Positions 17,140-32,142 of a DNA stretch of 64,000 bases are shown piece after piece. Source of the DNA: Nymphaea colorata (taxonomy: Eukaryota > Streptophyta > Magnoliopsida > Nymphaeales > Nymphaeaceae); assembly GCF_008831285.2 (NCBI RefSeq), contig NC_045140.1:9298505-9362504 (forward strand), read 5' to 3'. Made by a program: the position numbers and the translations under genes. Each line of letters starts with the position of its first letter. Position 1 is the stretch's first letter. The notes under the pieces are model-generated. The model worked only from the letters and a program-made list of their open reading frames with translations. It searched no databases and was not told the DNA's origin.

Positions 17140-17436
17140 TGGAGAAGTGCTGAAGTTTGCCAACGTTTGGAACACAGTCTTGAGGTTCTTGGAGTTGCAG
17201 TCTTGGTTCTTGGAGTTGCTGCAATAGAAGAAAGGTGATTCTCTTTTTCCTTCTCTGGGGGGTATTGTTTCTTGCGAGAGCTTTCCTTCCGGTTTGACTT
17301 AAGTAGATTGTGCTTGTTTTCTTTTGGATGTCATTGCAGGAAGGTGTTCCTGAAACAATCGATTTGCTTCGGAAGGCTGGAATCAACTTTTGGATGCTTA
17401 CTGTTGATAAACAAAATACAGCCATTCAGATAGCGC
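17140..17436 (+). pseudogene. ALA2: P4-ATPase (ALA2-like flippase) exons, left part, broken
   Basis: P4-ATPases flip phospholipids across membranes using a phosphorylated Asp. Exon 17140-17234 follows TTTAG and encodes WRSAEVCQRLEHSLEVLGV and AAIEER, ending at GTGATT. The next exon encodes [32 protein letters not shown] and I, and is cut at 17,436 by the hAT element. It resumes at 32,111. The landmarks match the cytoplasmic domain of ALA2-type proteins. Defects: the invariant TGDK of P-type ATPases reads TVDK; a 21-bp tandem duplication (units at 17184 and 17205) adds seven residues; and the acceptor of the second exon is not recognisable. Only this part of a gene of about 1,100 codons is visible, so it was probably a fragment before the transposon arrived. 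Confidence 0.85.
17429..17436. repeat. 8-bp target site duplication gatagcgc, left copy
   Basis: GATAGCGC precedes TAGGGCTG and recurs at 32111-32118 directly after CAGCCCTA. Both lie within what was one ATPase exon, so the duplication is exact and the reading frame joins across it. Confidence 0.93.
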
Positions 17437-17720
17437 TAGGGCTGCACAACGAGTCGAGCTACTCGAGCTCGACTCGTAAGCACATTCGAGCTGCTTATTT
17501 AGTTAAACGAGTCGAGCTCGAGTTGACAAGCCGACTCGTAGCTCGACTCGTTTAAGCTCGACTCGTAAGCACATTCGAGCTGCTTATTTAGTTAAACGAG
17601 TCGAGCTCGAGTTGACGAGCCGACTCGTTTAATTAATCCAGTCGAGTTCATTTCAGTGAACTCGTTAAAGCTCGACTCGACTCGATTAGTTAATGAACCG
17701 GTTTTTTTAAAACCGGTTCA
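17437..17720. repeat. Left terminal and subterminal repeats of the hAT-like element
   Basis: TAGGGCTG start, then many copies of CGAGTCGAGCTCGAG-type motifs on both strands. A unit of about 84 bp occurs twice (from about 17,467 and 17,551, starting CTCGACTCGTAAGCACATTC). A short palindrome GAACCGG...CCGGTTC lies at 17,695-17,720. Such subterminal clusters are usual transposase binding sites in hAT elements. Confidence 0.8.
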
Positions 17721-19260
17721 GATGAGAAAGCGGGAAGAGTTTAGTGTTTCCTGGCTACTTTCCTCTTTTCGTTTTCGTTCTCACTTCTCCCTCTCTGAGC
17801 TCTCTCCGACTCCGACTCTCCCTCTCTCGCCTCTCGGTCTCTCCGACTTCTCGTTCTCTTCTCTTCTCTTGTTCTCCCGTCTGGGAGTCTCCGACGTCTG
17901 CAGGAGGACAAGTCGTCCGCGGCCGTGGGCCACTTCAGCCTTCAAGGTCAGCCGGCTGCTCTGCCTTCAGCTCAAGGTGAGGTCTTCCACTTCTGCGTCT
18001 CCAGTTCTCTCACTCTAGTTTTCCCGTCTCCGACGTCTGCAGGGGGAGTCTCCGACGTCGACACTCGACAGCCACTCTGAACAAGTGAACTTTGTGACTT
18101 TGGAGCACATCGTTAACGCCTTTAAAAAAGACCAACGATTCTTTCGTGTTCAGAAAGGGAGAGGAGACGCAAGAACTTGTGAGAAAGAGGTTACAAAAAT
18201 TTCGACGTATCTTTCTTTTACCTAAGAATCTGAACTCTGCCATTTATTTGCCCACTCCCCAAAAGAAACTTGCACTTTCTCCTGAATCTGCTGGATAAGG
18301 TCCTCCATGGTCGTTTTTCATCAGCTTTCTCTTCGTTTCTTGGTTCAACCTTTCTTCTTCTGCATTGTGTTGTGCGACTGTCAGAATAACCTGTGTGGAA
18401 TGATTAGTACCGTTTCATCCTGTTGTAATTGCTGAGTAGATTGAACATGTAGTTGATAAGACTTAGAATATCTATCTTCGCATGCATGTAACTGGAGTTT
18501 GTTGATGTTATGTAGTTATTTTTGGGGATTCATTTATGATAACCATATGGGTGTTATGTAGATAGGTTTTATGTTTCTTTTAAGAGTTAAAGGAATAATC
18601 TCGACGGATCTTTCACCCATTTTGTACTTTACCTTCCTCTTTTTATATTTTTGAACAGTTTATGCAGGATGCATGGTCTGTCAGAGGAAACATTCTTGAT
18701 ATACATGTACTAGTTCTGAACTCTTTGCAATAGTAACTGCAGAGGCTCCATTTTATCTCCTGTTCAATCAATTGCATAGACCATATGTTACCCGTCTGAT
18801 TGGTTAGGAGAATACATGAGGAGTAGGAAGGCTCGTAATACTAATTGCTGCTGCTTATCACTATCATAATGGACGAGCCTTTTTATCTGCGTTCTCCTCT
18901 GGATAAATCTAAGCTATAGATTCAAGAAAGAAAAAAACTTCAATTCCTGGTTATTACTCTTTGGAAAGAAACGATAGTTTCATATTTCATTCTTTTGGTT
19001 GCTGCTGTTTTCCTCTTTTTATTTTAAAAGTAATTTGATGGTATGTGTAGTATTCAGGGGATTTAGGCTGTCCTCTGCCTGAAAGCAAATTTTTCTGTCT
19101 TTTGTTTAATTTGCAGTTTTGCACTCTTACATGGTTGTGTTCGATTCTTGTTCTGGCACTTGCATAATTGAATTTTTATGATCATTGGGAGTTGGTGTAA
19201 AATATACGGATGATTAACATGTTCTATCAAATATTAACATGTTCTATCAAATGCCTGCAG
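17721..19260. other. Interior of the hAT-like element left of the UBC exon
   Basis: 17,740-18,060 is rich in CTCTCC, like a plant 5' untranslated leader, and may come from the captured gene's 5' end. I find no first UBC exon (the start with KRILKEL is absent). A 20-bp tandem copy, TTAACATGTTCTATCAAAT, sits at about 19,213-19,252 just before the exon acceptor. Nothing else is recognisable. Confidence 0.5.
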
Positions 19261-19388
19261 GTCCTGTGGCTGAAGATATGTTCCATTGGCAAGCGACAAT
19301 TATGGGACCTCCTGATAGCCCTTATGCTGGAGGCGTGTTTTTAGTTACAATTCATTTTCCACCTGACTATCCTTTTAAGCCTCCCAAG
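19261..19388 (+). pseudogene. UBC: Captured UBC exon (E2 core, first half)
   Basis: Ubiquitin-conjugating enzymes pass ubiquitin from E1 to targets. The exon is bounded by TGCCTGCAG and GTTATT and encodes [20 protein letters not shown] then [19 protein letters not shown] and PPK, identical in pattern to UBC8/10-type E2s (the E2 fold up to the strand before the active site). There is no internal stop or frameshift. It lies inside the hAT-like transposon, with its partner exon 11 kb away because of two copia insertions in the intron. The first and last UBC exons are missing, so no full enzyme can be encoded here. Confidence 0.93.
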
Positions 19389-19605
19389 GTTATTTTTTAT
19401 TTTCTTGTCATTTTGGAGCACAATGCCTATATTTTGCAAGTCTCTTCTTGAATAAGGTTTTATCTGCAGCTGGCTAGTGTAATGATGATTTACATCTTTA
19501 TTGTTTTTTATTTGTGTGAAGGAGAAGTTTGTTGCAATCAACAATTTTTTTTTTCCTTGGTGGTTTGCTTGCTTGAAACAAAAGTTCTAGTTGGCCAATA
19601 ACCTT

Positions 19606-19860
19606 TGTAGAAACACGAACAAGAAGAGGAAGAGAAACAACGATCACGATGTAACGTGGAAAACCCTCAACAAGAGGGAAAAAACCACGAATGAGGAGGA
19701 ACCGGTGCCCACTAGCCGCCAGACTCTCTCTCTCCTTAGTCTTTCATTCACACCTTAAGGATTAGGGTTACACGACTTAAATAATGCCCAACAAGGGCTA
19801 CAAGTTGGATCGGATACGGATCCGGACCCGGTCCCGAGACCCATCTAACATACTTCAACA
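19606..19860 (-). repeat. 3' LTR of the 19606-24292 element
   Basis: 255 bp, reading TGTAGAAACACG...CTTCAACA on the plus strand, the reverse complement of the LTR at 8029-8283 with few changes. Confidence 0.92.
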
Positions 19861-30664: not shown

Positions 30665-31399
30665 GTCTATTTTATGTTTTCTCTGTAGCCTGCTTGTGAA
30701 CATAATTTATGTTGCTTCTGAACTGTATATGCAGATTTACCAGCCAATCATGTGGTTGTACATGGGAAAACCTAAGCACATGTGCATCTGCTAAAATATA
30801 CTTCATATCATTTGCGATAGAGGATAACTTATTCATTGATGTATTTTGTTGCTCTACATATGTTTAACTCTATCCATCTAACTTGTTCCTTTCCAAAACA
30901 CTTCTCTCCTCTGCACTACTTGGCACTTGCAACTTACGAGGCCACTACCCTCATACTGCATCAATTTCAGCCTCAAGATCCTTCACAAGTGCATTAAACA
31001 TTTCAGCCTTTATTACATTCAACAAGGCCTTGGGGAAGGCAGATTTGCAGTGTGAGTATGGAGAAAAGCTGTATCAATTTTTCATCTATTTCTTAAGTAT
31101 CTTGTTTCTGTTATATTGAGCAAGCATCTAAGGCTGTGTTTTTTAACACAATTAGAATGACTTTGGGAAAAGATAAAACTCTCCAGGACCTCTCGATCTA
31201 TCTATCCCCCTCTCCATGTGTGATCTATTTGCGTGTAAGGAGTCTGTGTGGGGAGAGAGAGTGTGTGCTTATTTGTCTATTTGTTCAGTTACTATAGCAA
31301 GTAAGTTGGGTATGGTAGGTCTTGCTCTTTTTCTGCTACTGATATATTTAGATATTGGCTATCCATGTCATTTACAATTTTATTTCGTCCCTTTTCCAG

Positions 31400-31601
31400 C
31401 TTCTTGTTTATGGGCCTGGTCAAGTTGTGCCATCAACCCTTCAGGTTGTCCAGTCTGATCTGAAATTCTCTATTGTTGTGAGTTTCTCTACTGCTGCTCA
31501 GCAGGGAAGGGTGATATTAGCAATGCGGAGAGGTTTCTGCACAGATTCTGCTGGAAATAGGTTTATCAGAACTGCTAATTCAACACATACCTTGCACTTT
31601 G
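31400..31601 (+). other. Unidentified spliced exon inside the hAT-like element
   Basis: 202 bp open in one frame, bounded by CCTTTTCCAG and GTATGTTATT. It encodes VYGPGQVVPSTLQVVQSDL followed by FSIVVSFSTAAQQGRVILAM and RRGFCTDSAGNRFIRTANST. I do not recognise the family. Clean splice borders and an open frame suggest a second captured host gene, unrelated to UBC; a chance frame cannot be excluded. Confidence 0.4.
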
Positions 31602-31829
31602 GTATGTTATTCATGTCCATAATGTATGACGATGGGTTTCCTACTTTTAAAGAAACACATGCTCTTAGCTGTGGATCGAACATTCTGTTTTTTATATGTT
31701 TCTCTAAGCCAAGGAGAAGGCTACTGCACATCTGAAATGTTGTCACATAGCTTGCAAAGTTTTTTTCATTTTTGTTCAAGCTTTCTGCACTTACTGTCTA
31801 CGTGGTTACTCGCTGCAGTTACTGTCTAC

Positions 31830-32110
31830 GTGGTAACGAGTAAATCGAGCTAATCGAGCTTAATCGAGCTCGAGCTCAACAAGTAAGGATGAGTAGTTAA
31901 TCGAGCTTATCGAGTTTAATCGAGCTCGAGTTCAACAAGTAAGGATGAGTTTTAAACGAGCTTATCGAGCTTAATCAAGTCGATCTCGAGTTCAACAAGT
32001 CACTATCGAGTCGAGTTCGAGCCAGGATAGTCGAGCTATATTCGAGCTCGAGTCTTACTTAGTCGAGCCGAGTTCGAGCTGGGGCTCGACTCGGCTCGTG
32101 TTCAGCCCTA
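31830..32110. repeat. Right terminal and subterminal repeats of the hAT-like element
   Basis: Repeated TTAATCGAGCTCGAG and CAACAAGTAAGGATGAG units (about 60 bp each, near 31,855, 31,907 and 31,955), ending GGCTCGTGTTCAGCCCTA at 32,110. The end pairs with the left end at 17,437. Confidence 0.82.
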
Positions 32111-32142
32111 GATAGCGCTCTCTTGCAACCTAATTTCTCCTG
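32111..32142 (+). pseudogene. ALA2: P4-ATPase (ALA2-like) exon, right part
   Basis: It continues the exon cut at 17,436. The second GATAGCGC begins IALSCNLISP and the exon ends TCCTG before a donor GTTAGT. Reading across the transposon gives the P4-ATPase order [16 protein letters not shown] in frame. No further ATPase exon is seen to the right. Confidence 0.85.

Follow-up and report, generated by a model that had tools for sequence, protein, structure and literature searches.

Evidence for a non-autonomous Pack-type hAT element with a chimeric cargo from at least three unlinked genes in Nymphaea colorata

Like the element described here, Pack-MULEs and gene-capturing Helitrons combine pieces of more than one gene; they differ from it in their ends, target-site duplication (TSD) and transposase class. 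A nearer parallel is offered by the Pack-hATs of maize and rice, for which the relevant parts of the published account describe TSDs of 8 nt and a route of acquisition in which tandem insertion is followed by re-mobilisation, with low-copy elements reported for some other Pack-TYPEs (PMC8903248). A recent review, where it deals with unlinked fragments, leaves space for an undiscovered mechanism behind them (PMC13317346). Pack-hAT elements appear to be little studied: the term occurs in two papers of the open-access literature searched, and our search there found no description of the present hAT family. Here we analyse a 64,000-nucleotide stretch of Nymphaea colorata contig NC_045140.1 (the window; C3:9298505-9362504 in a genome of 407.8 Mb in 783 contigs; positions without a contig prefix are those of the window). 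It contains a single 14,674-bp insertion at 17437-32110, with the ends TAGGGCTG...CAGCCCTA, which we take, with a probability of about 0.94, to be a non-autonomous Pack-type hAT (Pack-hAT). The cargo is a chimera of at least three unlinked genes, all in sense order: a cupin gene, a UBC gene and an unnamed gene on contig C2 (the C2 gene), and the donors are still present at their own genomic places. This is one more case of an already known plant gene-shuffling route, not a new kind, and it bears on the question of how cut-and-paste elements gather unlinked genes.

The boundaries of the insertion are well defined by the sequence around it. The original prediction, made from the letters of the window, described an 8-bp repeat around the paired ends; the only two occurrences of this repeat, GATAGCGC, on the + strand of the window are the TSD copies, and its reverse complement is present once. 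A 347-bp host query (17090-17436) matched all 40 scored places among 53 candidates, including the window and two segmental copies of it, and from the 37 places outside these three interrupted ones we fetched eight loci (L017-L024, L017 containing three units). All eight are uninterrupted at the insertion point: the left match stops at 17436 and the right one resumes at 32111, with an overlap of 8 bp in seven of them; in L021, whose left match ends two bases early, it is 6 bp. These empty paralogous loci with their 8-bp overlap show that the ends are correct and that both belong to one insertion. Dense repeats locally and the near-identical segmental copies on C3 could point instead to several insertions lying together or to an error of assembly, but the identical TSD, the paralogous loci without the insertion and the recurrence of the end pair in independent members of the family make this highly improbable. 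The conditions that had been named as refuting a single insertion did not arise: other elements of the family have the same end pair with TSDs of their own, and in paralogous copies of the host the site is empty at just this base.

The host reading frame continues across the insertion site (40-residue joined translation), and from its sequence we take it to be that of a P4-ATPase (flippase), the Pfam P4-ATPase model having been applied solely in the hunt for whole genes. The predicted in-frame joining of the host thus holds, but calling it an exon of a flippase gene was an overstatement, since the sequence is present in at least 40 places and the window copy is degenerate: it reads TVD, against TGD in eight of nine other translated loci and IGD in L022. 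Its 21-bp internal duplication is also found in L018 and L024. The insertion hit a degenerate repeat copy and broke no working flippase gene here. The copy on C11 (L041) has an intact TGD and is followed on its strand, some 10 kb downstream, by matches to the P4-ATPase C-terminal region; it may represent the parent gene. At C10:6004159-6019029 the ATPase fragment is part of tandemly arrayed units of 3,655 bp that are 99.5% identical to one another. Numerous partial P4-ATPase C-terminal matches, several as close opposite pairs, are found at C8:23.60-24.52 Mb. Assigning the ATPase-bearing repeat to a class was given up, as no callable boundary was found.

The ends of the element belong to a family that is abundant in this genome. 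A 301-bp query from the left end matched over its full length at three places on C3 and in part at 37 dispersed ones (40 scored of 709 candidates), a right-end query found 39 other places among the 40 scored (774 candidates), and right ends were paired with left ends in L012, L013, L014, L015, L016 and L035. Eight of the ten elements known at both ends have a perfect 8-bp TSD: GATAGCGC in the window, GGGTTGTG in L012, TGAACAAG in L013, GCGATAGC in L015, ATCATAAT in L016, CTGTTTCA in L035, CACACGGG in a copy on C13 and GATGGACG in a copy on C3. The terminal inverted repeats (TIRs) TAGGGCTG...CAGCCCTA are common to the window and the transposase-coding copies, and one end is altered in L014, L015 and L016. 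No hAT transposase was recognised in the window element when its frames of 150 amino acids (aa) or more were inspected, the four scanned with Pfam all being copia-type (a weak test), and PF05699 had no match in the element among 150 scored of 1113 genome candidates. The search for an autonomous copy that had been recommended led to the C13 and C3 copies (L025/L028 and L026/L029), which are 6.75 kb each, 99.985% identical over 6,751 columns, bounded by TIRs and TSDs, and both contain an open transposase frame of 698 aa. The C13 frame, the one scanned, matches hAT-like_RNase-H (2.5e-28) and Dimer_Tnp_hAT (3.4e-28), and the protein aligns with the transposase of the insect element Hermes over the blocks tDmWt, vDnassN and aSERafS, which are presumably catalytic. 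Near-identical copies with differing TSDs suggest recent transposition and make the C13/C3 element a candidate recently active transposon. A transposase of this sort would have moved the window element in trans.

What does the element carry? The leftmost piece of cargo shows 46 substitutions in 460 aligned sites, with 175 gap columns, against its source on C12, where the Cupin_3 frame (2.9e-16) is found about 0.9 kb downstream of the matched region. It probably includes a leader exon, ending with GAG/GT at 18189/18190, as judged from the sequence. Other hAT copies also have the stretch 18441-18685 (C9:8403428, C9:11184646, C647:3587 and C7:10194563), which makes this capture older; a genomic source for 18574-18685 was sought and none was found. 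The UBC segment contains part of intron 1, exon 2, intron 2, exon 3 and part of intron 3, collinear with the source apart from the insertions. As predicted, both exons are perfect: they are identical to the C10 gene and keep their splice-site dinucleotides, and the SICLDIL stretch in exon 3 contains the E2 active-site Cys. Another spliced frame that had been noticed corresponds to the exon-like stretch of the C2 gene, whose segment has no Pfam match. The retained introns show that the cargo was copied at the DNA level, as the proposed capture of genomic UBC sequence implied, but it came from at least three unlinked genes and not from UBC alone. At the piece junctions there are a 3-bp overlap (18782-18784), four unassigned bases (30947-30950) and none at 31675/31676. 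A query across the UBC-C2 junction (30520-31640) was matched in full in the window only, the other matches being one-sided (11 candidates, all scored).

Table 1. Features of the insertion and its host sequence, in window positions
Feature	Positions	Strand	Details
Host P4-ATPase fragment, two exons	17090-17428	+	Member of dispersed repeat; 21-bp internal duplication; TVD replacing TGD
Left TSD GATAGCGC	17429-17436		Flanks left end; fetched paralogous loci L017-L024 (8/8) unbroken here
Left TIR TAGGGCTG	17437-17444
hAT left terminal region	17437-18029	+	TIR TAGGGCTG; subterminal CTCGAGCTCGACTCG-like repeats; 89-bp tandem at 17466-17628
Cupin-upstream piece	18109-18573	+	From upstream of Cupin_3 gene on C12 (L032)
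Family-shared cargo part	18441-18685	+	18441-18619 at 96-98%, 18620-18685 at 97%
80-bp segment	18705-18784		C2:2040242-2040321, 92.5%; 3-bp overlap with UBC segment
UBC gene segment	18782-30946	+	C10:21115554-21118085; both copia insertions within
UBC exon 2	19261-19388	+	UQ_con 3.3e-14; 0/128 substitutions against C10 source
Copia-type retrotransposon 1	19606-24292	-	TSD ACCTT; RVT_2, rve; long terminal repeats (LTRs) 97.2% (6 substitutions, 1 gap, 250 columns)
Copia-type insertion 2	24873-30014	-	RVT_2, rve; LTRs 80% over 171 columns
UBC exon 3	30560-30664	+	UQ_con 3.2e-13; 0/105 substitutions against C10 source
C2-gene segment	30951-31675	+	C2:2152927-2153647, unnamed gene
Exon-like stretch of C2-gene segment	31400-31601	+	Source at about C2:2.15 Mb
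hAT right terminal region	31676-32110	+	Terminates in CAGCCCTA; family matches at 75-87%
Right TIR CAGCCCTA	32103-32110
Right TSD GATAGCGC	32111-32118		Matches left copy

Taken together, the UBC exons show no substitution in 233 sites, against 91 in 2066 in the UBC introns (Fisher p 1e-4). The C2 exon has 5 in 202, against 24 in 523 in its flanks, which is not a significant difference (p 0.29), and exons captured by related elements have 8 in 332 (kinase, L012), 9 in 316 (kinase, L013) and 9 in 303 (paladin-like, L035). The UBC exons differ from these other captured exons pooled, the C2 exon included (31 in 1153), with p = 0.006; this exon test is post hoc, the limits of the comparison exons are approximate and the two kinase values come from one source gene. 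A single open frame runs through the two UBC exons and on into the C2 exon, and the cargo would form a potential transcription unit made of the cupin leader, UBC exons 2-3 and the C2 exon, with the exons in frame. Is it then a functional chimeric gene under selection? Besides the excess of changes in introns and in other captured exons, the intact splice-site dinucleotides, the single joined frame with its in-frame ATG, the absence of ATG from 17981-18306 and the sense orientation of every piece would all suit such a gene. However, the test was chosen after the data had been seen, and an unseen UBC paralogue with introns already diverged could be the donor and explain the result; with only half of the intron divergence on the captured branch, the chance of zero changes is 0.006. 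Furthermore, about 9.8 kb of retrotransposon sits within intron 2, the C2 exon differs from its source in amino acid at two codons, and the segmental copies, which also have no changes in exon 2, have too few expected to discriminate. We consider a functional gene under selection unlikely.

Is such mixed cargo found elsewhere in the family? We searched five further non-autonomous elements (L012, L013, L014, L015 and L035), chosen for having both ends known and not at random; the interiors of L016, L033 and the C1 copy were outside this search. With the window included, five of the six elements contain at least two recognisable gene pieces, while L015 has one plus unidentified segments. L012 and L013 contain pieces of a Tub-domain gene and of a protein kinase gene, to which L012 adds a gene from C3:21.06 Mb, known from open frames alone. 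The kinase piece of L012 has an in-frame stop (TAG against CAG in the source), so not all cargo remains open. In L035 the pieces, in the order paladin-like, PDS5, paladin-like, come from PDS5 (1.9e-6, just under the cut-off) and a PTPlike_phytase gene (2.6e-9), for which we assume the label paladin-like. L014 contains a region upstream of a histone-fold coding sequence (2.5e-24) and a C6 gene (open frames alone), and L015 an OST48 piece (2.1e-5, under the cut-off) and segments matching C3:17.23 Mb and C1:19.08 Mb. We do not regard L015 as a proven two-gene element, because the C1 match may itself be a family element, with family sequence adjoining, and no gene was recognised in the C3:17.23-Mb source (L048). 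The cargo of L012 from C4 was considered as spliced cDNA, but the gaps against the source (97, 903 and 152 bp) lack GT...AG borders and look like deletions.

With each element read from left to right, which is the direction of the transposase gene, all 11 readable segments are in sense (binomial p 0.001). They derive from the cupin, UBC, C2, C3:21.06-Mb, Tub, kinase, PDS5, paladin-like, histone, OST48 and C6 genes; the strands of the C2, C3:21.06-Mb and C6 genes come from open frames alone, and the C2 source has open frames on the opposite strand as well. The count covers those fetched sources that could be read; five others (L034, L036, L037, L048 and L049) were unreadable. The segments backed by Pfam, two of them under the curated cut-off, are in sense in 8 of 8 cases (p 0.008). 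It is conceivable, though in our opinion rather doubtful, that the family takes up genes in sense relative to its transposase gene and that the UBC-C2 cargo is a young, selected fusion protein. A sense bias, if true, would point to transcription-linked capture during gap repair or to selection for cargo readable from the left end. Both this bias and the lack of change in the UBC exons deserve further study.

How could such pieces have been brought together? We propose that the cargo was gained stepwise and that the cupin-derived part came first, because relatives share some of it while the UBC-C2 junction is in no other copy. The pieces would have been added through error-prone gap repair of hAT breaks, involving template switching, a step to which we give about even odds; the order paladin-like, PDS5, paladin-like in L035 suits it. 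The competing scheme is tandem insertion followed by re-mobilisation from the outer ends of two neighbouring hAT copies, repeated for each gene. A published account proposes it for Pack-TYPE elements and includes CACTA and hAT cases in its S5 Fig (PMC8903248); family ends are abundant in this genome, but no family-end motif was seen in 3.2 kb around the cupin source, the one scanned, and the small junction overlaps and the L035 order fit template switching better. We find it rather unlikely for this element.

Without the two copia-type insertions, which sum to about 9.8 kb, the element is about 4.84 kb long, in good agreement with the ancestral size of about 4.8 kb and the later growth by copia insertion that had been proposed. 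Both insertions contain RVT_2 and rve, but the second is more likely two insertions than one: its LTRs are only 80% alike, a TSD is absent and the adjoining UBC sequence lacks about 183 bp present in the source, so it is probably two copia insertions fused by recombination that deleted the intervening DNA, and we rejected an ordinary single copia on the grounds of the LTRs and the TSD. The segmental copies at C3:7257177 (L005) and C3:7298245 (L008) contain the flanking host sequence, the left hAT end, the left UBC part and most of insertion 2; insertion 1 is absent from them, cleanly so in L005 (empty site), and neither the right hAT end nor the right UBC part gave a match there. We rejected them as transposed copies, since the shared host flank identifies them as segmental duplicates of the left part. 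They are inverted, about 41 kb apart, and differ at one of 3,633 compared sites, which reflects either an inverted duplication of very recent date or an effect of the assembly. The order of events would then start with the capture of the cupin piece and next of the UBC piece, followed by insertion 2, the segmental duplication and insertion 1; the C2 capture may have come before or after the duplication. The clocks conflict with this order: the LTRs of insertion 1 differ at 6 of 249 sites, while the segmental copies differ from the window at 18 of 3640 and 18 of 3659 (about 0.5%). More fragments of the left part of the element, some in broken order, are found at C3:7370093-7398668. Elsewhere in the window, 9184-13949 resembles insertions 1 and 2 and has copia-like frames on the + strand, and 52328-52637 is a tandem array with periods of 39, 45 and 83 bp.

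Several points weigh against a mobile Pack-hAT. L014 and the C11 copy have no matching TSD, and zf-BED in the C13 transposase is under the cut-off (0.028). The left end of the window element is just 81% identical to the C13/C3 transposase copies over 17534-17968, and the closer C1 copy has a stop inside its dimerisation-region frame. The complete element was found in the window alone, so it may not have moved since its last capture, and captures may have taken place after insertion at the present site; the acquisition mechanism, too, is deduced rather than observed. The same cargo was seen at one transposed site only, other elements sharing just the older piece 18441-18685. We do not treat recurrence of the cargo as defining, because low-copy elements are reported for some other Pack-TYPEs.

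With donors, acceptor, empty sites and near-identical transposase copies all in one genome, a junction-by-junction test of gene acquisition becomes possible. Compared with known systems, the 698-aa protein resembles the transposase of Hermes, a hAT transposase of solved structure, in regions that align (best E 2.6e-14), but is distant from it. As far as the maize and rice Pack-hATs are described in the relevant parts of the published work (PMC8903248), the present element is like them in its hAT ends, 8-nt TSD and host gene pieces, and examples of acquisition are reported for them. What sets the present case apart, although published elements may share these traits, is that the donors are mapped gene by gene, that five of the six elements searched hold pieces of two or more recognisable genes, that all readable gene strands are in sense, and that near-identical transposase-coding copies are found in the same genome.

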